DNA of 64,000 bases from Branchipolynoe longqiensis (taxonomy: Eukaryota; Annelida; Polychaeta; Phyllodocida; Polynoidae): contig CM059187.1 in the NCBI GenBank assembly GCA_030323885.1, positions 83,660,027-83,724,026 on the forward strand, read 5' to 3'. Made by a program: the position numbers and the translations under genes. Shown here one piece after another: positions 9,334 to 57,149 of this stretch; position 1 is the first letter of the stretch, and each line of letters opens with the position of its first letter. The notes beneath the pieces are model-generated. The model ran no database searches. It saw only the letters and a list, made by a program, of their open reading frames with translations, and was not told where the DNA came from.

Positions 9334-9735
9334 GAAAAGGGATGATGTAAAATATACCAATGAGACGTGTGAACACCCTTGAGTAGTTAAGAGACTATTT
9401 AGTATAAGACAGTATCGACAAGCCATGGAAACAATCCTTCCACAAAATAATATATAATATATTGTAATATATGCCAATGAGACATGTGAACACCCTGGAG
9501 TAGTTAAGAGACTATTTAGTATAAGACAGTATCGACAAGCTGTGGAAACAATCCTTCCACAAAATAATATATAGTATATTGTAATATATCCCAATGAGAC
9601 ATGTGAACAACCTTGATTAGTTAAGAAACTATTTAGTATAAGATAGTATCGACACGCTGTGGAAACAATCATCTCATAAGATATTTGAACTATAAAAAAG
9701 TTAATATATCCGTGCCACATCGGAGAGGTTCATAA
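9334..9735 (+). repeat. Polypurine tract followed by LTR-like tandem units of about 120 bp
   Basis: GAAAAGGGATGA (9334-9345) resembles a polypurine tract and is followed by TGTAAAATATACCAATGAG. Three units then share AATGAGACATGTGAACA, GACTATTTAGTATAAGA and GTGGAAACAATC. The unit start matches the short LTR at 10660-10765, so this is likely an LTR with internal duplications belonging to the integrase fragment. The minus-strand frame over it is a repeat by-product. Confidence 0.55.
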
Positions 9736-13645: not shown

Positions 13646-13965
13646 TACAAATTCGATGTGAACTAGTTCCAGCATGCACCGGTTATCAATATTAGTATAG
13701 AGTTGATGAAATGGGAGAAAGGGCCCAAGGAAAAACAAGATGGCAGCCACTAGATTATCTCATTTCGACCATTAAAGCCTATTTAATGTACATGATTAAC
13801 TAAATTCTTGACTTTAATCATAGCAAGTAGATACTCATTTTAGCTACGTATTTGGCGCCTTACATAGCAAATTCATGCGGTTATGTCTAAAACCCAGCTT
13901 CCCAACATTTGTGTGTATAGGGGTGTTTAGCAACCCTGTCCTGGAGACAGTCCTGCGGTGTAACT
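13646..13965. other. Unassigned sequence
   Basis: No coding signal or repeat border recognised. Confidence 0.35.
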
Positions 13966-14625
13966 AGGTTCATGAGAAACTAGGTACCAGGACATGACAA
14001 TTACTCTGATTTGATTTGATTTCACGTTCTATTCATAGTTACAGTGATGCGGGGGTAACTACGTTCATGAGAAACTAGGTAGCAGGACATAACAATTACT
14101 CTGATTTGATTTGATTTCACGTTCTATTCATAGCTACAGTGATGCGGGGGTAACTAGGTTAATCAGAAACTAGGTACCAGGACATGACAATTACTCAGAT
14201 TTGATTTAATCTCACGTTCTATTCGTAGCTACAGTGATGCGGGGGTAACTACATTCATGAGAAACTAGGTAGCAGGACATAACAATTACTCTGATTTGAT
14301 TTCACGTTCTATTCATAGCTACAGTGATGCGGGGGTAACTAGGTTCATCAGAAACTAGGTAGCAGGACATGACAATTACTCTGATTTGATTTGATTTCAC
14401 GTTCTATTTGTAGCTACAGTGATGCGGGGGTAACTAGGTTCATGAGAAACTAGGTAGCAGGACATGACAATTACTCTGATTTGATTTATTTCACGTTCTA
14501 TTCGTAGGTACAGTGATGCAGGGGTAACTACATTCATGAGAAACTAGGTAGCAGGACATGACAATTACTCTGATTTGATTTGATTTGATTTCACGTTCTA
14601 TTCGTAGCTACTATGAGGTAAACTC
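13966..14625. repeat. Satellite array, about seven units of about 95 bp
   Basis: GAAACTAGGTA(C/G)CAGGACAT recurs near 13976, 14071, 14166, 14260, 14350, 14446 and 14540. Each unit continues ACAATTACTCTGATTTGATT, TTCACGTTCTATTC and ACAGTGATGCGGGGGTAACT. Units differ in the number of TTTGA copies and a few bases. Confidence 0.9.
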
Positions 14626-14688
14626 TACACCATCCAGGGGCAGCAGGGTTCCAGTTATTATAGATGTACATCTTCTACCAACTGTAGT

Positions 14689-15041
14689 TAAAGTTGCATA
14701 GTCCGATGGTTTTGAGTTTCAGAAATTGTCTGAGATAAATACATTAGGTTGATCGTTATAATGTACCTTACTTTAGCTTGAAGTAACTTTTATTTTAAGT
14801 GGCTAACTTTTGAGATATTTGAAGTGCAACCATGCAAAATTAATTTTGGCAGGCTTGCCAAAACTCTGACACCATAGCATTCTGCAGTAACATGATCTAT
14901 TCAATTTCCTCACTATTCCCTTCGGTGTGGCGACAAATGCTTAATAAGTGCATCAGTATCTAAGCTAGATATGTAGAATCAAATTTAGATCATTGCTTTG
15001 GTTTTAAAAATTTGATTATTTCATCAGACTATGCAGCTTTA
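14689..15041. mobile_element. MITE family M1 (TAAAGTTGCATAGTCCGATG ends)
   Basis: Left TAAAGTTGCATAGTCCGATG and right CATCAGACTATGCAGCTTTA are inverted repeats. The interior contains the family motifs TGAGATAAATA, TTGATCGTTATAATG and TCCCTTCGGTGTGGC. Its right end is the target of the RTE-like insertion at 15042. Confidence 0.85.
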
Positions 15042-16915: not shown

Positions 16916-17049
16916 ATAAAGCTAACCCCCTGGACTTGACACTCATACCTGCAGTTGCAAGTATCCATGTATGTCACTTACAGAACATACCCAAGGAAGT
17001 TTCAACACTACACAGAATGCATCATTACAGAATCCTGGTCAAGGAACCA

Positions 17050-17195
17050 ATGTCATGTGGGGGTATTTTTTACAAATGGGGAATGCTGTGCCTAGAGCGG
17101 TCAGGAACCCACCCTTCTGCTATTCCGGGGCTAGCCTCTTAACTATTAGACTATATTGGCTTCTTCATGATATCAGCAAATCCACACCTACCTGT
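17050..17195 (-). mobile_element. SINE family S3, second nearby copy
   Basis: AATGGGGAATGCTGTGCCTA, AGGAACCCACCCTTCTGCTA, TTCCGGGGCTAGCCTCTTAA. Same order as 16741-16915, with more changes. Confidence 0.55.
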
Positions 17196-17267
17196 GAATG
17201 TGATATTTCATTGGAGGAGGTAGCTGAACCTCACTACATTAGAATAAGGCAAGGAAATGTTACTGAG

Positions 17268-17461
17268 TGAGCTATCGGACCGGCGGCTCGGTCTCCTAAA
17301 GGGGCAGCACTATAAAGTCGCCATAAGTGCAAGCTGTCGACGCCGGTCCTGACAAGACCCCCGTCCTGATATGACCGTAGATGTTGCTAGGACGTAAAAC
17401 AACAACAAACAAACAAACAAGACCGTAGGTGATGCTAGAACGTAAACCCTCCAACAAACAA
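17268..17461 (+). mobile_element. SINE S1, tail type b, 5'-truncated
   Basis: GGGGCAGCACTATAAAGTCG, CCTGATATGACCGTAGATG, TTGCTAGGACGTAAAAC and a CAA/AAAC-rich tail. A second partial tail follows directly (GACCGTAGGTGATGCTAGAA). Confidence 0.75.
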
Positions 17462-17522
17462 AGGATCATTTCTCTTTTTTTTCCAAATATGTCTAATAGT
17501 TACTGTTTATATTTCTCTTTCT

Positions 17523-17875
17523 TAAAGTTGCATAGTCCGATGGTTTTGAGTTTCTGTCATTTCTCTGAGATAAATATACTAAATTGATCGTTATAATCTA
17601 CTGTATGTTAGTCTGAAGTAACTTTTATTTTAAATGGCTACCTTCTCAGATATTTGAAGTGCAAACATGTCAGATTAGTTTTGTCAAGCATGCCAAAACT
17701 CTGACTCCATAGGCTTCTGCAGTAACAGGTTTTATTGAATTGGCTTGGTATTCCCTTCTATGTGGCAACAAAGGCCTAATAAGTGAACCAGTATCTATAT
17801 TAGATATGTAGAATCAATTCTAGATGTTTTTTTTGTTTTTTTTAATTTGATGCTTGATCGGACTATGCAGCTTTA
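17523..17875. mobile_element. MITE family M1
   Basis: TAAAGTTGCATAGTCCGATG at the left and GATCGGACTATGCAGCTTTA at the right. Interior matches the copy at 14689-15041 throughout. Confidence 0.85.
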
Positions 17876-17879
17876 ATGT

Positions 17880-18172
17880 GCAGACTTCCCATGCCGAAGG
17901 TCGGGCGTTCGAATATAGTCAAGTCAATCCAATAACTTAGTAAATTGATCATTTTCGTTACCTGGCCTGGCATTGGGCATGAGTAGGATAGGGCAAGGAC
18001 TGGTTTTCCATGTATCAGAATAATGTGCCCGTGTGAGATATCGGGTGCTGGTGGTATGATCTACCAGTGGAGCAGCACTATAAAGTCGCCATTAGTGCGC
18101 ACTGCTACAAGTTGGTCCCTGTCCTGATATGACCTTAGATGTTGCCAGGACACAAAATCCAAACAAACACAC
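17880..18172 (+). mobile_element. SINE S1, tail type b, variant head
   Basis: A head related to CATGCCGAAGGTCGGGCGTT, the shared body with GATAGGGCAAGGACTGG, then the b tail (GGAGCAGCACTATAAAGTCG to ACACAAAATCCAAACAAACA). Confidence 0.75.
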
Positions 18173-18454
18173 TGTGCAAAAGTATATTTCCCATTGTGGG
18201 AATATGGCTGCTCCAATATATGTGTTGGCATACCTATAATGTTGCATGTGGGTATCAAGCAGATTATACCATAAACTGCATGTCTGTGTCACTTTTCTGC
18301 ATGGCCACGTCCATTTTCGTAATGGGTTTTATCCTTTTGGTTGGTTCCCGTCAAGCACGTGACCAGTGTGCGCCTGACCCATAGCATGGATTATCCAATC
18401 AGAACACGCATCGACCCTCACCCCGAGTGTACTTCCCATAACAGCCACACTCTT

Positions 18455-18578
18455 AATTGAAAACAGAACGAGACAGTAGTATAAAGTGGCAATTTTAATT
18501 CTTTCTATCTTAACTTGTTACATTACTCTTTCATGATGAGATGACCTTAGATATTTCAAGGATTAGAGGCACTTAACC
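18455..18578. repeat. Split direct repeat B2
   Basis: Begins AATTGAAAACAGAACGAGAC and ends GAGGCACTTAACC. Same length as B1, with single-base changes at TCTTAACTT, TTAGATA and GATTAGAGG. It forms the 3' end of the element on the minus strand. Confidence 0.85.
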
Positions 18579-18615
18579 CTATCGATACATCATATTAGTT
18601 GGGTGGGTGGGACGG

Positions 18616-18949
18616 CAAATCTGGGCGGCAGAAGTACGTCCTCTCGGTTTGAAAAGTCTGGTCGAAGTGAATATCTCCAGTGCCACGTCATCGGCTTTGA
18701 CTGGAAATCACTATAGGTGGCGCGTCAATCGGCAACCATTTTAGTTCTAAAAGTGAATATAGATGTCGCCACCAGTCTGATTTTAATCTAACTGCGTAGT
18801 TCAAGAAGTATCATGTAGATGGCGCGTCGATCAGCGGCCAAAGTTATTAGTTCTAAGAATAGAATATAGTCGGCGCCATAGTGCCCTAATCTACTGAGAT
18901 TCACAGTCTCGTTCATTCAATTACCCATGTTGCGCACATCATGGACAAT
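18616..18949. repeat. Split direct repeat A2
   Basis: CAAATCTGGGCGGCAGAAGT to CATCATGGACAAT. Matches 22000-22333 over its whole 334 bp with a two-base change (GGCAACC versus GGCGGCC) and one more (CATAGTG versus CATGGTG). Confidence 0.9.
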
Positions 18950-19070
18950 TGAAAACAGAACGAGACAGTAGTATAAAGTGGCAATTTTAATTCTTTCTAT
19001 CTTAGCTTGTTACATTACTCTTTCATGATGAGATGACCTTAGGTATTTCAAGGATTACAGGCACTTAACC
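18947..19070. repeat. Split direct repeat B1
   Basis: Directly follows A2 with an overlap of AAT. Ends GCACTTAACC next to the interior. Counterpart of 18455-18578. Confidence 0.85.
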
Positions 19071-19075
19071 AAAAA

Positions 19076-19700
19076 ATAGAGCAAGTGTCCTGGGAGCCGA
19101 TGAAACCGACTGCCTTGGTACATAATCATGCACTGCGTCAGTGGTCCAATGACCCAAGTGTTTGATGTTGCTGATTGACGATTGTTGCAGAGCACAGGCT
19201 TGTGCACCACCTCGTCTCAGACTATGCAGTGTCATTGCCGCTGGGGCCGGATGACCTGCCATGGACAGGGCCAGTCGTATGGTATCAGGCAACGCGGTTG
19301 CACGTAGAGGTGATCCGTTGGTAGTCAGGAAGGCAGGGCCATCGGGGTGAAGTGGTGTCCTGGACACGTAATCCTTCCACGCTTGACGTGGACAGTAGGG
19401 CGATCCAGTTATCGCCGGAACGAGAAATGTCTCTTGGAGACGATGACTTGTATTGTTTTTGATTACCGGACACGGACATTGATGCCCACTGCGGTTAGCC
19501 TCAAATCCTTGGCCCGAAGATAGTGGCCAGGGTCAGAGCTGCCAAATTTAGGAAAGGTTAGTCTGTCGGAGAAGTGTGCGATGATAGTAGCTAGCACCAG
19601 TAGTATTCCCTTGCCTGGGCTGCCTTATTCCTCCAGGTCCCAATCGCCAGCCCCGCCTTAATGGCATCAAGAAGCCGCTGATGGTGACGTTGTGAGTAAC
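19076..19700 (-). pseudogene. DIRS/Ngaro-type tyrosine recombinase, degenerate
   Basis: The C-terminal part reads open from about 19470 to 19076: a beta-hairpin-like segment with PAITGSPYCPRQAW, PDGPAFLTTNGSPL, then the recombinase signature LHSLRRGGAQACA (His-x-x-Arg, His codon 19226-19224, Arg 19217-19215), IKHLGHW and the candidate nucleophile Tyr in HDYV (codon 19124-19122). The N-terminal helical part can be followed in other frames up to about 19700 (RHHQRLLDAIKAGLA, NKAAQAREYY), separated by frameshifts and a stop. It acts, when intact, to integrate circular cDNA of these retrotransposons. Here it is broken. A Crypton origin is less likely, because RNase H lies just upstream. Confidence 0.75.
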
Positions 19701-19799
19701 CTGGGGAGAGAAGGCACAAAATTTAAATATCGATCCCAGGTTACAGGTTAGGGGTCAAAGCATTGTCATGTGTCACAATCACCACTTCCAGGCCGGCCT

Positions 19800-20105
19800 C
19801 AGCAACAAGTCTCTGGCTAGACTCCTTGCACGCAAGTCGAAACACCTACGACTTAGAGCATCAGGAGAATGATGTCCTTTCCTGGTCTGTGTCGGACAAG
19901 AATGTCGGTACTCCTTCGTGCGGCAAACAGCCAGATCTCCCGGGCACAGGCACAGATGACAGGGTCGCAACCTGCCGCGGAACTGAGCACTTGCTGTGAG
20001 GTTGCATTGTCTGTGTTTATTGCGATGGTGTATTTGTGCGCTTAATGTGGAGAGAGATGTTTGAGGGCGACAACCAGATTTATCGCCTCGAGCTGTGGGT
20101 TTTTG
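19800..20105 (-). pseudogene. Retrotransposon RNase H of the DIRS/Ngaro type, degenerate
   Basis: Minus-strand frames give LEAINLVVALKHLSPH, a stop, then TIAINTDNATSQQVL (the Asp-bearing TDN motif), CAREIWLFAARRSTDI, VRHRPGKD, and, after a frameshift, DALSRRC (19862-19848). This order (hydrophobic helix, TDN, C-REIWL, PGKD, ADALSR-like end) is characteristic of RNase H in DIRS-like polyproteins. It lies just upstream of the recombinase, as expected. At least one stop and one frameshift make it non-functional. Confidence 0.75.
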
Positions 20106-20860
20106 AGATGGTCTCCAGACAAATTCAGCTTTCGTGTAGGATGTCGCTATACTCGTGACTCTAGAGTGGCTATGTATACCTAAGCCTGTGTCACTTGTTC
20201 TGCGAGTACATCAACAGTGTACGGGGAGCCGTTTCCATGCAGGGTCATTAGAAATTTTTATGTGATTCTTATCACGCATTGTAGGCCTTTTCGTCTCAGA
20301 TTGTGATTTGTTAGCTTCTGACATGGTCTGCAAACAAATTTGTGTAGGAAGTTGCCATACTTGTGACTTCAGTGTGGCTATGTATACTTAAGCCTGGGTC
20401 ACTTGTTCTACGAGTGCATCAACAGCGTGCGGGGACCGGTTATTTCAATGCAATGTCATTATAATGTGGGTTGTCAGCTTTTGTCTATCAAGCAATGCCC
20501 AAGTGCGCCATGATGATAAGGCTCGGCACCCTATTAAGCTTATGAGATAAAAGAATGCAGAGCCCTTGGTGAATCGACATCTTAGAATGTGATTGAAGAA
20601 TGCTTTGCGGTTTCATGTATTACTCAAATCCTATGCACTGCCCAACCTCCAGGTCGTGGTGATGTCGGCACTCCCTGAGACTTTGCGTCTGCGACAATGT
20701 CTAGACGGTCGCCATCACAGCAGCCAGACAAGATCTGGGTGTAGTTCGCATGCACTCTGTGTACTAATAACTTTTGTCTGGCCAAGTGCGAGATCTGGGT
20801 CAGCGTGTGGTTCATGGCGCTTATGTACAGGTCAGTGTAATTAGAATGTGGAGTGTCAGC
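20040..20860. repeat. Internal tandem-like repeats of the split-repeat element
   Basis: Blocks near 20103-20260 and 20320-20470 share GTGTAGGA, ACTTGTGACT, GTGGCTATGTATAC, GCCTG(T/G)GTCACTTGTTCT and CATCAACAG. Parts recur near 20790-20860 (AGAATGTGGAGTGTCAGCTT). No recognisable protein. They occupy where reverse transcriptase should lie. Confidence 0.55.
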
Positions 20861-21059
20861 TTTTGTTACTTGACTTATTGTGTGTCGGATCGGTTGTTTA
20901 TATCCAGTGTCATTGAGGAGATATTTTATGTGTGTGCACCTATGGTTGTTGGATGGCGCCATCATGAGTATTAGCGTGTTCTGTGGTTAGGTAATGTCCG
21001 AATGATTTGCAGTCTAGTGGGGGAAAGAAATGTCTCCAGCTTATGCATGTTAAATAGTT

Positions 21060-21620
21060 TTTAAAATCAATCCGCTGCGACGCAAGGTTCGTTGACTGCA
21101 TCCCCCATTCGTCGTCGCACCCATTGCTCGGACAAACTGCATTGCAGATAACATGTCCTCCCCCTCCGGCACACATCCGATGCTCCCTACCATCGAAGAC
21201 ATAAGATTTAAACTCACGGTTTCCACGTGTTCGTCGTCCACGCCGGGGGCCACCATGAAAGGAGATCACAGCCGATTGTACCGAGAAGGAGCGATGGCGT
21301 GTCGGTTCAAACGATCACCTCCATAACAATCCGTCGAGCATACTGTCATGGCCGCCTCCTCGTGCCATGATGTCAGCACGCCACCAGCTCGGAGAAACTG
21401 CGTCCTCCCCTGCCGGCACACGTCCGATGCTCCTCGCCATTGAAGGAAAGAGATTCGAACCCACTGTTTGCATGAGTTTGTCGTTCATACCGGTGGCCAC
21501 CATCAAAAGAAATCACATCCGATTGTAGCGAGAAGGAGCGATGGCTCAAAAGGTCGCCTCCATAGCGATCCGTCGAGCATGCTGTCATGGCCGCCTCCTC
21601 GTGGCGTGACGTCAGCACAC
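21060..21620. repeat. Tandem duplication, about 240-270 bp units, near the 5' end of the split-repeat element
   Basis: GGCACAC(A/G)TCCGATGCTCC, GGCCACCAT and GAGAAGGAGCGATGG recur at about 21170-21300 and 21417-21545. A third partial unit (GCATGCTGTCATGGCCGCCT) starts at about 21570. On the minus strand the repeated frames give related peptides, which could be gag remnants, but no zinc knuckle is visible. Confidence 0.6.
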
Positions 21621-21999
21621 CGCCGTTGCGGTGTAACGGACCTAAATTTTTGTCGTTCCGCATTTCCCTGCGGTTTGTGATACGTACATTAATACCAAGT
21701 TTGACATCGGTGATGTGGTTTCTGTAATGTAGCCAGAGCGATGGTTAATCCCACGTCCGCAGGCTTCTTTGACGCGTCAATTTTTTGTTGTTTTTGTTGT
21801 TTCATCTCGACGTGCCTCACCCCGATCCTGTGTTCGAGTTGAACGAGACTGTCTTATCGAGATATATTATATGATAGAGCCACTGACTTCGACCTAGTTT
21901 TCGGTTTCTTCCTCCCGTTGACCAGGCTTGTTGATCCAGAGTATCTGCCCTGGATCCCTTCATGGGTTTGAAGCCGTCATTCCCACTCCAGTTTTAATC

Positions 22000-22333
22000 C
22001 AAATCTGGGCGGCAGAAGTACGTCCTCTCGGTTTGAAAAGTCTGGTCGAAGTGAATATCTCCAGTGCCACGTCATCGGCTTTGACTGGAAATCACTATAG
22101 GTGGCGCGTCAATCGGCGGCCATTTTAGTTCTAAAAGTGAATATAGATGTCGCCACCAGTCTGATTTTAATCTAACTGCGTAGTTCAAGAAGTATCATGT
22201 AGATGGCGCGTCGATCAGCGGCCAAAGTTATTAGTTCTAAGAATAGAATATAGTCGGCGCCATGGTGCCCTAATCTACTGAGATTCACAGTCTCGTTCAT
22301 TCAATTACCCATGTTGCGCACATCATGGACAAT
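22000..22333. repeat. Split direct repeat A1
   Basis: The 5' end of the element on the minus strand. Near-identical to 18616-18949. Outside it the match stops abruptly at GTCTGCAATAC. Confidence 0.9.
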
Positions 22334-23205
22334 GTCTGCAATACAGAAGGAAAGAGAAAAAACAATAGTCGTTTCCAGAATATAGTAGTTGCATATGCGC
22401 GTGGTTAGCCGTCAGGCAGAACCAAGCGAGGAGGAAGCCAGGACTTAGGACGGTTACCAGCTGAAGAACTACAGCAATATAGAGAGGCACCGATAAATCA
22501 GTCCAATCTTTGGTTGAAGATTAATCTTCTGGTGGGGTGGTTGTAGAAGCTGGGGACATCTTTACAATCTATCAAATGATGAGTCGTTGGGGTGGCCCCG
22601 AGTCTCTCCAGTCTGTAATATATGTTGATGGTGGTGGCAGAGCACTCCTATCCAGTGAACAGCTGCAAGGGCTCAGGAGGAAGGGACGGGTAAAGGTGGG
22701 TTCAGCGGTTCCAGCAACAAGAACAAAGCGAGAGAAATGATAAGGTAAAGTGCCCCACCCAAGCAAACAACTCCCTTGATCAGGGGGAGAAGTGATCCCG
22801 GGAGAAGAAGAAAAAAGGTAGAGTATTGGAAAGAGAAATGAGGAGAGTTGAGTGAAAGGACCGTGTCTCTTTGCTCTATGGTGACCAGCGAGCGAGCCAA
22901 AGACATGGACAGAGTAAGAGTAGAAAGTGAAATGCTGGCGGGCTCCCCCTCCTGGAGCTCTTTTCAGACATTATCAAGGAGGAGCAAGGCCAGCAGAGAG
23001 GAGATAGAGAGAGGTGTGGATGAAGAGTGGTCCGGATAGCAAGTGGAAGCCAGGTGGCATCACCAGGCGAGGCAGAAGGATTGACCAGTCACTTGAGTAG
23101 ATGAGTGTCATAAGTTGTGTAGCATTTAGTTGGTGTGAACTGGTTAATTGATTTACGGATAATTATACTTGAATAATTGTTTATACAGCACATATAAATT
23201 TAAAG
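22334..23205. other. Unassigned, purine-rich sequence
   Basis: Overlapping short frames on both strands show no domain. GA-rich patches at 22795-22850 and 22990-23040. No repeat end found. Confidence 0.35.
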
Positions 23206-23208
23206 GGG

Positions 23209-23420
23209 TTGATGCAAATAGGAAATATTGTGTCTAGAGCAGGTTTCGAACAAACACTTCTACCCATTCTGGAGCTAGTGTGCCAACCATTATGTTACCT
23301 AGGGCCGCTGATGCAATCACCCTACCAACGCCTACTTGTCTGTTTGGCTCTTTGGGGAAATCACCCTATGCACGCTTACCTGACTATAGTAGGTGGTTCC
23401 TTGTCTGAGAGGTTAGTGCA
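23209..23420 (-). mobile_element. SINE family S3
   Basis: GATGCAAATAGGAAATATTG, GAGCAGGTTTCGAACAAACA, ACCTAGGGCCGCTGATGCAA and CTACTTGTCTGTTTGGC match the S3 consensus in reverse orientation, with a duplicated end portion (TCACCCTATGCACGCTTACC). Confidence 0.65.
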
Positions 23421-23582
23421 ACTGACACTCATCCACTTGCAATTGTTAATCTTTTACATAACTTAAGCTGGTTAGTGTTTGCAATTACAAACAACCAGGC
23501 AATGAAGTTGTATATATCGCACTGTAGGTTCAACAAGCATACATCATGTAGCTTGCATTGGATAGACCAGTGTCATAGAGAA

Positions 23583-23745
23583 GGTGAAATTGGGAAATAG
23601 TGTGCGTAGAGCAGAAATCGAATACACAGTTCTTGCAATTCCGGGGCTACTTTGCTAACCAATACTCTACCTAGGTTCCCTGATGCAATCACCCTATCCA
23701 TGCCCATCTGTCTACATGGCCCCTTGCCTGATAGGAAGTGCAGAC
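23583..23745 (-). mobile_element. SINE family S3
   Basis: GGTGAAATTGGGAAATAGTG, TTGCAATTCCGGGGCTAC, CTACCTAGGTTCCCTGATGC, TGTCTACATGGCCCCTTGCC. Followed by a TA microsatellite. Confidence 0.65.
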
Positions 23746-23747
23746 TA

Positions 23748-23749
<2 letters not shown>

Positions 23750-23780
<31 letters not shown>
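23750..23780. repeat. TA dinucleotide microsatellite
   Basis: About 15 TA units, adjoining a SINE S3 end. Confidence 0.9.
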
Positions 23781-23781
<1 letters not shown>

Positions 23782-24079
23782 CGGAAATATATTATGGTCA
23801 TTGTAGCAACTGACACAACCTTTCCCCTTCTAAACATCTGGTGTGAACATGTGGAGTAGCCAATTATGTGTGATGTATAAGGATTATGCGAGTATAAAGG
23901 CGAGTAAGGGATGTTCCTTATATTATCATATATATATTAAACACAGCGATGCCGTGTACTACTTTATGGGAATTTTAGGCATTTTTGCAACTGTGAATTG
24001 GGAAACAGGCATAGAAACAGGAGGAATGGCGCGGAATATTGAAAGTAAATTGATGTACTGCCACTTGCTGGTTGAAGAC

Positions 24080-32919: not shown

Positions 32920-33766
32920 TAATGTGGTTTGATAGCTAACCGATTTGGGCCATGTCATTTAGATTATGATTAGTCAGGTGGTTATGGAATGTGATTTTTA
33001 ATATGGTTGTGCAGCCAGGTAGTTGTGGTGTTTGTCATTTTGAATATTGGTCTATAGCCAGGTTGGTATTTGGAGTGTGTGATTTTGAGTATGGTTTGTA
33101 TAACCATATGATTATTCGGCTATAATTTTGAATACCATTCTAAAGTCAGGTGGGTATTTTTAGTAACTGATTTTAATATGGTTCTATAGCCAAATCGTTT
33201 TTCGGAGTAGATGATTTTAAAATGGTTCAATAGCCAAGTGCTTATTTGAAGTAAATGGTTTTTTAATATGGTGCTTTAACGAGGTGCTTAGTTAGAGTAA
33301 ATGATTTTAAATATGATTCAATAGCCAGGTGGTTATTTGCAGTAAGTGAATTTTTACTGTTGTGCTATAGCTAAGTGAGTTTTTAGGAGGTAAGTGGATT
33401 TTAATATGGTTCTATAGCCAAGTTTTTAACTGGAGTAATTGATTTCCAATATGATTCTATAGCTGGGTGGTTATTTGGAATAAGTGATTGTTAATATGAA
33501 CCTATAGCCAAGTGGTTATTTGGGGTAAGTGATTTTAATATGCTTCTATAGCTAAGATATTATCTGGATTAAGTGTTTTTTAATTACTATGTTTGACAGA
33601 AGTTCATATATCCAAGTGGTTATTTGGAGTAAGTGATTTTTAGTATGATTCAATAGCCAAGTTATTATTTGAATAAAGTGATTTTTAATATGAACCTATA
33701 GCCAAGTGGTTTATTTGGAGTAAGTGATTTTCAATATGGTTCTATAAACAGGTGGTTATTTGGAAT
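32920..33766. repeat. Intronic minisatellite, about 18 units of about 45 bp, abutting a splice donor
   Basis: Units follow AAGTGATTTTTAATATGGTT, CTATAGCCAAGTGGTTATTT, GGAGT. The last unit ends about 7 bases from the donor of the exon at 33774-33944. Units are diverged, so the array is old, yet the splice site is intact. Confidence 0.85.
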
Positions 33767-39124: not shown

Positions 39125-39765
39125 ATTCAATGGCTATGAGCAATCTTCATACAAAAGAAGTGTAATATCTCTAAAAGTACACCACCTAGAGACAAACCAC
39201 TTGGTAGACATATAGAAAACATATTCAACAAATAGATTATATTAAATTTATCAGGTTAAGGTTCTGCATTTCTATTAATTTTGAATAAAATACACGTTCT
39301 GCACTGCTTGTACCAGCAAACTCAATGCATTGTCAATGGCCGTGAGCAATCTTCATACAGAAAAAGTAACATATCTCTAAAAGTTCACCACCTAGAGACA
39401 AACCACTTGGTACACATATAGAAAACATATTCAACAAATATATTATATTATATTTATCAGGTTAGGGTTCTGCATTTCTATTAAATTTTAATAAAATAAA
39501 CGTTCTGCACTGCGCGTACCGGCAAACTCAATGCATTGTCAATGGCCGTGAACAAACTTCATACAGAAGAAGTCAAATATCTCTAAAACCACAACACCTA
39601 CAGACAAATCGCTTGGTATACATATAGAAAACATACAACGAATAGATTATATTAAATTTATAAGGTTAGGGTTCTGTATTTCTATTAATTTTGAATTAAA
39701 TATACGTGTTGCACTGCGCGTACCGGCAAACTCAAAGCATTGTCAATATGACCGTGTAGGCCCAC
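39125..39765. repeat. Three-unit tandem repeat, period 206 bp
   Basis: CAATCTTCAT/CAAACTTCAT recurs at 39141, 39347 and 39553. Each unit continues ATATCTCTAAAA, CACCTA(G/C)AGACAAA, CACATATAGAAAACATA, ATTATATTAAATTTAT and GTTCTGCACTGC. The unit shares motifs with the hairpin arms at 62672-62991. Confidence 0.9.
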
Positions 39766-40710: not shown

Positions 40711-41011
40711 AGTGCGTGGTGGTAGACCATGGGATCCTGGGTTCGAACCCTAGTCGATTCAAACCAATGACTTAAAAATTGATACTTGTCGCTTCCTAGC
40801 CAGGTGCTCAGCATTATTAGGATAGGGCAAGGACTGGTTGGCTCAGTGTCAGAATAATGTGACTGAGTGGGATATCAGGTCATGGTGCTGGTGGCCTGGT
40901 CTCCCATAGGGGCAGCACTATATAGTGGCCATGAGTGCGCACTGTCATAAGTCGGTACCCGTCCTGATATGACCTTAGATGTTGCTAGGACGTAAAACAA
41001 CAAACAAACAA
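40711..41011 (+). mobile_element. SINE S1, tail type b
   Basis: GTGGTGGTAGACCATGGGAT, GGGTTCGAACCCTAGTCGAT, the full shared body, and the b tail to AAACAACAAACAAACAA. Confidence 0.85.
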
Positions 41012-41261
41012 TCTATTCAGTGATAGGTTACTAAATGTATATTCCTATAAGGCAAGTTCATCTCACCACATTTGACATCTGCATTTACGTCTATAAAATG
41101 GCATGATAGATCTAGAATAAGAGTTCCTTTGAATAGAAAGATTTGTGTGTGGTAATTTCCTATCAACATAGTTGGCACCTGCATTTAGATTTAGACCTTG
41201 ATTGTCAGTTTTTTCTTTATATTATCTTCAGGTTGGCATTGTGTGGGATGGCTTCTAGTAA

Positions 41262-49931: not shown

Positions 49932-50251
49932 GGGCGCGGTGGCCTAATCGTTAAAGTGCTGACCTCACGTGTGAAAGGTCAGGAGTTCAGTTCCCGATCG
50001 AATCAAACCAATGACTTTAATATTGATACTTGTCGCTTCCTAGCCTGCCACTAAGCATTAATAGGATAGGGCATGAACTAGTTAGCTCAATGACAAGATA
50101 ATGTGACTGAGTTGGATACTGGGTCATGGTGCCAGCGGCTTGATTTCCCAGTGGGGCAGCACTATAAAGTCGCCATGAGTGCGCACCGTCACAAGTCGGT
50201 ACCTGTCCTGATATGACCTTACATGTTGCTAGGACGTAAAACAACAACAAA
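49932..50251 (+). mobile_element. SINE S1, tail type b, GCGCGGTGGCCTAATCGTTA head
   Basis: Head GCGCGGTGGCCTAATCGTTA with GGAGTTCAGTTCCCGATCGA as box B, full body, and b tail to ACGTAAAACAACAACAAA. Confidence 0.85.
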
Positions 50252-50414
50252 TATACCCAGCATTAACACGACGGCAGCCATTGGTTTATGGATTTTAATT
50301 CATTTGGGATTTTTAAATGATTTGCCTTCCTCAGGCATCTTTTTGTAAAGGGCAGTATTAGCATTATTATTGTGTTCATTCACCGTTCGTTATGTCCTTG
50401 AATAGGATTATAGA

Positions 50415-52565: not shown

Positions 52566-52899
52566 AGACGGGGTGGCCGAATGAGTTAGAGCGTCCGTCT
52601 CCCGTGTTGGTAGATCGTGGGATCGGGAGTTCGAACCCTGGTCGAGTCAAACCAATGACTTAAAAATTGATACCTGTCGCTTGCTAGCCAGGTGCTCAGC
52701 ATTATTAGGATAGGGCAAGGACTGGTCTGCTCAGTGTCAGGATAACATGACTGAGTGGGATATCAGGTCATGGTGCTGGCAGCCTGGTCTTCCAGTGGGG
52801 CAGCACTATAAAGTCGTCATGAGTGCGCACTGTCACAAGTCGGTACCAGTCCTGATATGACCGTAGATGTTGCTAGGACATAAAACAACAACAAGCAAA
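52566..52899 (+). mobile_element. SINE S1, tail type b, full length
   Basis: GACGGGGTGGCCGAATGAGT head, GGGAGTTCGAACCCTGGTCG box B, body, and b tail to ACATAAAACAACAACAAGC. The best full-length S1b with the type II-like head. Confidence 0.9.
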
Positions 52900-52942
52900 G
52901 TCTCTGGGGATCTTTATCTGACAGAATATATAATTATATATA

Positions 52943-54295: not shown

Positions 54296-54632
54296 CGGGG
54301 CGGTGACCAAATCGGTAGAGCGCAGAGTGAATCGGTAGACTGCAGTGCGGGAGATCAGGTGTGTGATTCCCGGTCGAGTCAAACCAATGACTTACAATAT
54401 TGATACATCTCACTTCCTAGCTTGGCGCTTGGCATTAGGAGGATAGGGCAAAGACTGGTTAATTCAGTGTCAGGATAATGTGACTGAGTGCGATATCAAT
54501 CAGGTCATGGTGCTGGTGGCCTGATTTCTCAGTGGGGCAGCACTATAAAGTCACCATGAGTGCACATGGTCAAAAGTCGGTACCAGTCCTGATGTGACCG
54601 TAGATATTGCTAGGACATAAAACTCCAACAAC
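54296..54632 (+). mobile_element. SINE S1, tail type b, duplicated head
   Basis: GGGGCGGTGACCAAATCGGT, a partial repeat GTGAATCGGTAGACTGCAGT, GTGTGATTCCCGGTCGAGTC, body, and b tail to CATAAAACTCCAACAACAAA. Confidence 0.8.
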
Positions 54633-54639
54633 AAACCAA

Positions 54640-55440
54640 CTGGTGCGACTCAACATGCGCGACGTCAAGGTGTTGGTGGCGTAGACGACAGAGGACTGAT
54701 GGCGCCACCTGTAGACAATGGGGAAAGTCGACGATGTGGTAAAGCCATCGGTCCTGAGGCGGTGCGGTCCGCCGTTAGTCCCAGGCAGTGTGGTTCACCG
54801 TCGGTCTAGCTGGCATAATCCTAAATCCGGCATAGTTCGGCATAGTTCGACATAGTCGTCGGAGCAGCTGGAGCCGCAGATGGGGCAGAGCTGCAGGGAT
54901 TATTTTGCAAGGTGCGGTTCAGCCGTCGGGTCCCGTGGCAGGATTCAGGAGGTGGCGGACCGCACTATAAAGTACTCACCGAGGTGGTTCGACCGTCGGG
55001 CCTACCACCCATGAATTACCCATGTTGTCCATGTTAGAGGTAACAGTTCTCTTCAATTGACGTGAGATAAATATCTAAGAAAATTGATATATGTCCATTG
55101 TGTAACAATAATTACAGTGCAGAAAAGACCCCAATAGAGAAGTACTTTAATTTGAAGCCTCATTGCACTGAATAACCGTTCTGGGTCGAGTATTCATTTC
55201 TGCTGACATTGAACAAGATAAACTGATTTAGTTAGCCCAATCAGATTGATGCTGCAGAAAGTCTTTTCATATTAACAAAGGAAGACTTCTCTTCTTTTTA
55301 TGTGGAGGTTACTATTAAATACGACTACTACGAGTGATGTGAATTCCACGTGATCGTGGCAAGATGTTGGGTGGGGTGTTTTTTTTAAAGGTTTTATTTA
55401 ATTTAGTTGGTTATCACCCTGGCATTATTTTAAGTTAGAA
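54640..55440. other. GC-rich block then AT-rich sequence, no gene called
   Basis: 54640-55010 is CpG-rich with GGTTC.CCGTCGG-like words and a minus-strand donor-like site at 54980 (CTCG/GTGAGTACT). No open conserved frame. A possible 5' exon is considered under findings. Confidence 0.3.
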
Positions 55441-55624: not shown

Positions 55625-56995
55625 CACAGCCACATTCACCACCCTGCCACATTCACCACCCTGCCACATTCACCACCTGCCACCATTCCATACTCACCAC
55701 CCTGCCACATTCACCACCCTGCCACATTCACCACCTGCCACCATGCCATACTCACCACCCTGCCACATTCACCACCCTGCCACATTCACCACCCTGCGAC
55801 ATACATCAGCGTGCCATACTCACCACCCTGCCACATTCACCACCCTGCAACATACATCAGCGTGCCATACTCACCACTCTGCCACATTCACCATCCTGCC
55901 ACCCTGCCATATTCACCACTCTGCCACATACATCACCCTGCTGTATTCACCACCCAGCCACATTCACTACCCTGCCACATTCACCATACTGCCACATATA
56001 TCAGCATGCCATACACACCACCCTGCCACATTCACCATCCTGCCACATTCAACACTCCCACCCTGCCATATTCACCACTCTGCTACATACACCACCGTGC
56101 CACATTCACCATCCGCCAGCCTGCCACATTCACCACCATGCCACATACCACATCACGCTGCCATATTCACAACCCTGCCACATTCACCGCCCTGCCATAT
56201 TAACCACCCTGCCACATTCACCACCCTGTCACATTTACCATATGCCACCCTGCCACATTCACCACCCTGCCCCATACATCACCCTGACTTATTCACCACC
56301 CTGCCACATTCACCATCTGCATCATTGTTACAGTCACCACCCAGTGCCCTGCCATATTTACCATCTGCCACCCTGTCACTTCATCACCTGTTATCATACC
56401 ACATTCACTTCCCTGCCACATTCCCCACCTGCTACTCTGCCACATTCACCACCCTGCCACATTCACCACCTGCCACTCTGCCACATTCACCACCACACTT
56501 CATTACCTGCTACTCTGTCACATTCAGAACCTGCCACATTGTCACTTCACCTATCATCCTACCATTTTCACCATCTGCCACATGCATCACCTGCCATCCT
56601 GTCTCATTCAGAACCTGCCACCCTGTCACTTCCTCACATGCCACCCTGCCACATCACACTGGCCCCTTGCCAGTTCATCACCTGCCACCCTGCCACATTC
56701 ACCACTCGCTACCCTGACATATTCACTACCTGATCCTTGTCACTTCATCCCTTGCCACACTTCTACATAGACCACTTTCTATCCTGCCATCCTGCCACAT
56801 TCACCATCTGCCACCCTGTCACATTCACCACCTACCGCCTTGTCACTTCATCCCTTGTCACACTTCTACATAGACCACTTTCTATGCTGCCATCCTGCCA
56901 CATTCACCAACTGCCACCCTGCCACATTCATCACTTTCTTCCCTGCCACATTCACCAACTGAAACCCTGCCACATTCATCACTTTCTTCTCTGCC
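55625..56995 (+). repeat. 17-bp minisatellite, CCACCCTGCCACATTCA, about 1.37 kb
   Basis: Roughly 80 units of CCACCCTGCCACATTCA with variants (ATACTCA, ATACATCAGCGTG, CTGCCA insertions). Because 17 is not a multiple of 3 and no unit forms a stop, all three forward frames stay open for hundreds of codons and encode the same 17-residue cycle. The 376- and 397-codon frames are therefore not evidence of a gene. Confidence 0.9.
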
Positions 56996-57149
56996 ACCCA
57001 CTGAGCAGAATGCAAAGCAGCAGCCAAGCTTAAAACGTGAAATGAGACGGCGTCCTTGGTTAATGAAGGAATGAATAACCGGGGTTTTACCTTCTTAGGT
57101 AACATCAGAAAAGACATCAATTTATGAGGGGGTCGCAGTCATTGCAGGA

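Follow-up and report, generated by a model that had tools for sequence, protein, structure and literature searches.

Can a retrotransposon family go on inserting into a genome after its own genes have been disabled? The question is raised by positions 18455 to 22333 of a 64,000-nucleotide stretch of DNA from the polynoid annelid Branchipolynoe longqiensis (assembly GCA_030323885.1, contig CM059187.1, positions 83,660,027 to 83,724,026), which we refer to in full as the window and from whose first letter positions are counted unless another locus is named. Read together with its relatives, 18455-22333 very probably represents one insertion of a non-autonomous split-direct-repeat (Ngaro-type) tyrosine-recombinase retrotransposon family which moved in trans, and the family most likely multiplied by means of the enzymes of working relatives. 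An earlier note on this DNA, made from the letters alone, had proposed a non-autonomous copy mobilised in trans, and the proposal is supported by the shared gene lesions, the other copies and the relatives with open frames described below. Trans mobilisation is the simplest reading, because many recent, sharply bounded insertions carry the same dead genes.

The element and its terminal parts, delimited by AAT boundaries and by comparison with 20 fetched loci, are as follows.

18455..22333, minus strand: whole element, A1-interior-B1-A2-spacer-B2
22000..22333, minus strand: A1 repeat; its outer end is the AAT (plus strand) at 22331-22333
18616..18949, minus strand: A2 repeat, 331/334 identical to A1
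18947..19070, minus strand: B1 repeat, with the recombinase stop codon at its start
18455..18578, minus strand: B2 repeat, 121/124 identical to B1; its outer end is the AAT (plus strand) at 18455-18457
18579..18615, unstranded: A2-B2 spacer of 37 nt, carrying a C-rich box (sense strand) conserved in relatives

Repeat alignments bore out the minus-strand order A1-interior-B1-A2-B2 and the 334-bp A and 124-bp B repeats given in the earlier note, which had overlooked the 37-nt spacer and the AAT in which B1 and A2 overlap. Its low divergences (about 1% in A, about 2.5% in B) also held, with 3 mismatches in 334 positions between the A repeats (18616-18949 and 22000-22333) and 3 in 124 between the B repeats (18455-18578 and 18947-19070). 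A 334-bp repeat pair at 99% identity far exceeds chance. All three changes in the window A2 relative to A1 are G-to-A, and they are absent from all other 21 aligned A sequences. The overlap of B1 and A2 (AAT at 18947-18949) is the same trinucleotide that stands at both element ends, and the B1-A2 block consists of the two outer ends fused through a single AAT, as expected of a circle junction. No inverted pairs of at least 30 nt were found in window positions 17000-24000.

Within the interior, gene remnants were located partly by comparison with a relative from the same genome (locus L046), in which reverse transcriptase (PF00078, E 1e-11), RNase H and recombinase occupy one open frame.

19065..19532, minus strand: C-terminal remnant of a tyrosine recombinase (P0001) with HSLRRGG, GHW and YVPR; residues 38-155 are 69% identical to L046
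19603..19701, minus strand: N-terminal remnant of the recombinase, 73% identical to L046 over 33 amino acids, then cut
19865..20095, minus strand: RNase H remnant, 66% identical over 77 amino acids to L046 (tblastn), with one in-frame stop
20101..20464, unstranded: interior module in two copies (20101-20253 and 20316-20464), 78% identical
21155..21624, unstranded: interior module in two copies (21155-21385 and 21402-21624), 80% identical

P0001 comprises 155 open codons (19068-19532 on the minus strand, without the stop) ending at the start of B1, with its first ~23 residues out of frame. The recombinase remnant that the earlier note had recognised is thus secured by seven database proteins at E 0.01 or better (best 6e-41, 65% identity); HSLRRGG, GHW and YVPR align with these seven homologues, with variants, P0004 varying and ending before the Tyr. 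One homologue, P0007, passes the Pfam cut-off for PF00589 (Phage_integrase) and another, P0005, falls slightly below it. Upstream, the window gene is truncated and out of frame, the remaining N-terminal part being missing by comparison with L046. The RNase H remnant, likewise proposed earlier, was corroborated by its match to L046; its in-frame stop is private to the window copy among 14 aligned copies. Reverse transcriptase, which the earlier note had failed to find, was recovered in the window neither by Pfam on the three minus frames (X at stops) nor by tblastn with the L046 reverse transcriptase, and the module pair at 21155..21624 sits where it would be expected, with no reverse transcriptase match there. 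The domain search that the note had recommended on those three frames recognised no domain in the window itself: Pfam gave nothing above the curated cut-off for the element on separate open frames and did not recognise the window's own recombinase and RNase H pieces. Sequence searches of the PDB returned no recombinase or reverse transcriptase structure, the window recombinase piece was unmatched in PHROGs, whereas its homologue P0002 matches an integrase family there, the viral contig scan gave no relative of the element, and ARAGORN predicted no tRNA gene.

Copies with the same ends, for which the earlier note had advised a search, are present elsewhere in the genome. A search of the window's own 1.85-Gb assembly with the A repeat gave 1189 first-look candidates, 40 of them scored; 28 of the 40 were identical over 334 bases, window A1 included, some of these being the A1 and A2 of one element. 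Twenty loci were fetched, selected by perfect A matches and covering 22 of the 40 scored places: 11 hold complete copies (L012, L014, L015, L017-L023, L025), five hold solo A-spacer-B units (L009, L010, L011, L024, L028), and the other four (L013, L016, L026, L027) are incomplete, through truncation, partial deletion or the edge of the locus. Complete copies measure 3.5-5.0 kb and are new insertions themselves. The earlier note had been prepared to abandon its reading if A and B proved to be unrelated satellites; the isolated A-spacer-B units instead look like solo units, because they have AAT at both ends and different flanks. Both ends are visible in 18 of 21 loci (the window plus those fetched), with one end only in L013, L016 and L026, and 18 of the 20 fetched loci match the 37-nt spacer in full at 97-100%; L019 does so for 34 nt and L013 not at all. 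Differences within copies, between A1 and A2 and between B1 and B2, are absent in L020, reach 8 A mismatches in L014, and comprise 6 mismatches plus 10 gap positions between A1 and A2 in L023. The family has spread recently through the genome. Towards A1 the interiors fall into four arrangements (by reading of the alignments), three of them represented by L012, L018 and L020, in whose interiors Pfam found no reverse transcriptase.

Flanks differ among copies, except for the right flank common to L015 and L027, which is identical over 303/303 compared bases while the left flanks are different, suggesting either a chimera or a duplication whose breakpoint falls within the element or to its left. 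The spread of copies by host processes, such as segmental duplication or unequal exchange, rather than by transposition would suit that single case, but the other flanks differ, boundaries fall at AAT and L012, L017 and L028 have matching empty sites, which makes this explanation hardly credible for the family. Element ends sit at the trinucleotide, the right-hand one being altered in L021 (CAT) and L023 (GAT), and L026 has lost its left end. A T precedes the left AAT in 15 of 19 cases (p about 3e-6 against the AAT sites of the window) and 15 of 20 right-hand trinucleotides have G as their next base (p about 6e-6, same comparison), in counts whose rows are not fully independent, L015 and L027 having the same right flank. 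The empty site of L012, TTAT-AAT-GTACC, lies in repeats at window 14688-15041 and at L014 3460-3804, that of L017 (TAT-AAT) at L028 4671-4724, and that of L028 at window 27005-26776, with GAT instead of AAT; that of L021 is ambiguous owing to its altered end. Other repeats matched to L012 show AAT with a different next base, or TAT, AAC, CAT, ACT or GAT, as expected of diverged copies. At the matched empty sites (three informative loci: L012, L017, L028) there was no target-site duplication and one trinucleotide only; a 3-bp junction without target-site duplication, a feature of tyrosine-recombinase retrotransposons (DIRS order), is thus present. B2 of L014 borders directly, at the terminal AAT, on a related A repeat (L014 8660-9017, 86% alike), as if L014 had inserted into the end of a relative.

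We then compared what the copies carry. Fourteen were aligned over the coding stretch, 12 of them covering all of it; these 12 differ by 0-2.3% (mean 1.65%) and have their frame breaks in common, and the longest open stretch in any of the 14 is at most 156 amino acids. The recombinase N-terminal part ends after 33 aligned residues in 15 of 16 matching sequences, the L046 reverse transcriptase part matched none of 29 sequences (window and L001-L028; E 1e-3), and the L046 RNase H part matched 16 of the same 29 (L008 and L016 are one place in these counts). Smaller losses are confined to groups of copies: a 2-bp loss directly before the HSLRRGG codons is common to L012, L017, L019, L020 and L022; 10 bp of the RNase H part are missing from L017, L019, L026 and L027. 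The gene lesions are thus inherited, with frame breaks and the recombinase deletion common to copies and further losses marking sub-lineages. Decay may also have been stepwise while the family moved, as suggested by L023, a copy with diverged repeats which retains a longer recombinase N-terminal part (~70 aligned residues) and perhaps represents an earlier stage of the loss. Its N-terminal piece, at L023 3962-4180, is still open over 73 amino acids.

Genome searches with P0001 and with P0002, an intact-type recombinase, were each read for the best-scoring 150 rows. Frames of 132-164 amino acids were found in 149 of the best 150 P0001 matches genome-wide, and the 31 P0001 rows starting only at residue 21-25 were also closed, with short frames. 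These data bear on an autonomous element that inserted intact at 18455-22333 and decayed in place, its A repeats kept alike by gene conversion. The private RNase H stop and the three private A2 changes of the window copy fit such a history and imply that some of the decay followed insertion. However, the lack of reverse transcriptase, the deleted recombinase N-terminal part and the frame breaks are common to insertions with different flanks, and almost all of the best P0001 relatives have short frames; decay in place is extremely unlikely as the whole account. Programmed frameshifting, by which the broken frames would still yield working proteins and leave the element autonomous for its recombinase, draws on the catalytic-domain motifs, still readable across frames in the window copy. 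Yet the reverse transcriptase and the bulk of the recombinase N-terminal part are missing altogether, not shifted out of frame, and the five copies with the 2-bp loss before HSLRRGG have an A repeat identical to window A1 (which was also the selection criterion). Nor is there a sign of purifying selection on the 155-codon recombinase piece, in which 27 nonsynonymous and 9 synonymous variants were counted, where about 2.3 to 1 is expected without selection. Frameshifting is therefore very unlikely.

Mobilisation in trans calls for relatives with working enzymes, and open frames are plentiful among them. The best 150 P0002 matches have frames of 216-1142 amino acids, commonly 325-341, and 118 of them are without internal stop (stops were read through and counted). 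In 19 of 20 fetched relatives a B-type repeat of 103-135 bp has its second copy 355-383 bp further downstream (517 in L039), and in L048 the duplicated block is longer, at 484 bp. The repeat begins at the recombinase stop in 17 relatives; in L038 and L042 the followed frame ended at an earlier stop. This recurring repeat is the B1...B2 pair of split direct repeats. As a partner query, P0001 returns mainly the family's own broken copies, and the longer L023 N-terminal piece was used instead; the group of long-frame recombinases nearest to the family has frames mostly of 325-337 amino acids (some 116-263), with many copies at equal scores; C2:53742491-53743237 and C8:37914459-37915205 are examples.

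Two candidate signals at the B1-A2 (circle-type) junction were delimited by comparison with relatives.

18916..18953, unstranded: palindromic core, TTCAATTG...AATTGAA on the sense strand; putative recombinase site
18904..18968, unstranded: core together with its inverted outer arms (sense strand CTGTCTCGTT / AACGAGACTG); unlike relatives' arms

The core, TTCAATTG...AATTGAA with inner CATG...CATG, has exact ends in 18 of the 20 relatives L029-L048, seven of which were aligned; exact ends of the pattern were absent in L039 and L044. Outside it the window family has an inverted pair of arms (CTGTCTCGTT/AACGAGACTG), and most relatives likewise have inverted arms, of a different sequence (GTCGGTC/GACCGAC). 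A box CCCACCCACCC (sense strand) occurs in the A2-B2 spacer of the window and of 7/7 aligned relatives (L029, L040, L043, L045-L048). This C-rich box CCCACCCACCC is conserved across diverged families, and its opposite strand is G-rich, possibly G-quadruplex forming. The family has retained its ends, its junction core and its spacer box, not its proteins.

From the observed terminal structure, AAT-to-AAT boundaries without duplication, inherited lesions, recent spread and open recombinase frames of relatives, we infer an RNA intermediate, a circle, and recombination at AAT by the recombinase of a relative. An intact relative would provide the reverse transcriptase and RNase H that copy the element RNA, with the internal B1-A2 block as the sequence source for rebuilding the ends and closing the circle. 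The relative's recombinase would then recognise the palindromic core at the B-A junction, and the circle would recombine with a genomic AAT, preferably in T-AAT-G context.

Several observations weigh against this reading of trans mobilisation. Transposition is deduced from sequence, not observed. The choice of loci by perfect A match biases ages and A divergences towards young copies, and A1/A2 divergence is not a clean clock here, because the A repeats of one copy differ as much from each other as they do from those of other copies (0.73% in both cases). The P0001 search favours copies with the same frame break, the ~23 leading residues being out of frame, and one of its best 150 matches, the sole long one, has a frame of 354 amino acids (C4:84469003-84469395). 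Reverse transcriptase was read in one relative only, L046. The nearest long-frame recombinases are 83% identical over 72 amino acids to the family's N-terminal piece, and for the still closer matches (85-100%) the frames measure 81-162 amino acids, mostly 81-95. The autonomous relative for which the earlier note had advised a search was found in so far as relatives possess open recombinase frames and a B1...B2 pair; no autonomous element with the family's own A and B repeats was among those read. Where a core could be read, in 18 of 20 relatives, the outer arms are unlike those of the family, so that recognition by these relatives cannot be taken for granted, and arm symmetry, 11/15 in the window, is only 6-10 of 15-16 in relatives, whose arms are thus less regular.

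The idea that specificity lies in the arms is conjecture drawn from a single contrast. It leads to a more tentative picture, which we consider possible though on balance doubtful: a gene-dead Ngaro-type family with several dead sub-lineages and four kinds of 5' interior may have outlived its own enzymes, bearing its own arms around a core common to intact relatives and being served either by a partner with matching arms or via the core alone. If true, split-direct-repeat elements would have an att-site code, with a conserved core and lineage-specific arms, setting who mobilises whom.

A separate candidate, that B is the 3' half of a short interspersed element (SINE) frequent in the window (plus strand), was set aside, as relatives' B repeats score only 14-22 when read in that orientation and at most 30 when reversed (18 of 20 scored, L038 and L042 skipped). 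B2 itself scores 45 against the SINE (shuffled mean 17, 0/3000 shuffles as high), a likeness noticed before testing, B1 scores 37, and another window fragment (6376) scores 40; this is either chance or a SINE fragment captured into the family's B. The SINE-like stretch spans 18454-18578, and SINE copies lie at 17272-17420, 18020-18185, 40870-41030, 50110-50265, 52755-52910, 54490-54650 and elsewhere. Tandem arrays occur elsewhere in the window at 9346-9670, 13960-14611, 33037-33766, 39127-39747 and 55629-56997, with units of about 117, 95, 45, 206 and 17-24 bp and multiples.

That long terminal repeat (LTR) elements, long interspersed elements (LINEs) and DNA transposons have non-autonomous partners is well established, and TOC1 of Chlamydomonas may be another such non-autonomous derivative. 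Among the matches listed from the open-access literature, judged by titles and the starts of abstracts, there was no clear case of a non-autonomous tyrosine-recombinase retrotransposon, SIRE/VIPER aside. The same disabling lesions across copies indicate that tyrosine-recombinase retrotransposons can be mobilised in trans, and comparison with relatives yields candidate cis signals: the palindromic junction core, the AAT crossover and the C-rich spacer box.

Among known systems, the family is closest to Ngaro elements, an assignment that rests on structure and not on a tree. Ngaro elements are organised as A1-[open reading frames]-B1-A2-B2, with repeats of 236 and 152 bp in Xenopus DIRS-53_XT. 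They encode reverse transcriptase/RNase H and a tyrosine recombinase that has the His-X-X-Arg motif, and Cafeteria has solo AB repeats (PMC8547959, PMC9210276). The window and 11 further complete copies have the split direct repeats A1-interior-B1-A2-B2, and P0001 has the HxxR and catalytic Tyr (HSLRRGG, YVPR). Reverse transcriptase and RNase H are both present in L046; the window copy has an RNase H remnant only and no reverse transcriptase, and is thus a derivative, not an autonomous Ngaro member. The lack of a methyltransferase domain between RNase H and recombinase was judged in L046 alone, for which Pfam listed only PF00078 and where there is no room for one. The likeness to Ngaro lies in split direct repeats of similar size, solo AB units and no methyltransferase (PMC8547959, PMC9210276, PMC4157794). 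Unlike Ngaro, the window family has no reverse transcriptase and little of the recombinase N-terminal part, and the frames of the copies read are all broken.

PAT elements also have split direct repeats and are placed within the methyltransferase-bearing DIRS group (PMC4157794); L046 has no room for a methyltransferase between RNase H and recombinase, and the window remnant gave no Pfam match to one. DIRS1-like elements have a 3-bp circular junction, ends that are most often ATT and integration without target-site duplication (PMC3266345), so that the 3-bp junction and the lack of duplication are shared with the window family. They also possess inverted terminal repeats and internal complementary regions, together with a methyltransferase domain (PMC3266345), whereas the window family's repeats are direct and no inverted pair of at least 30 nt, terminal or internal, was found in window positions 17000-24000. 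SIRE of Trypanosoma cruzi is a short derivative of VIPER that corresponds to its A2-B2 part and contains about 30 bp exclusive to SIRE (PMC6681497), which resembles the solo A-37 nt-B units of the window family. For SIRE its authors leave open whether it moves in trans or is a remnant (PMC6681497); in the window family, the 3.5-5.0 kb copies that bear the lesions are themselves new insertions.

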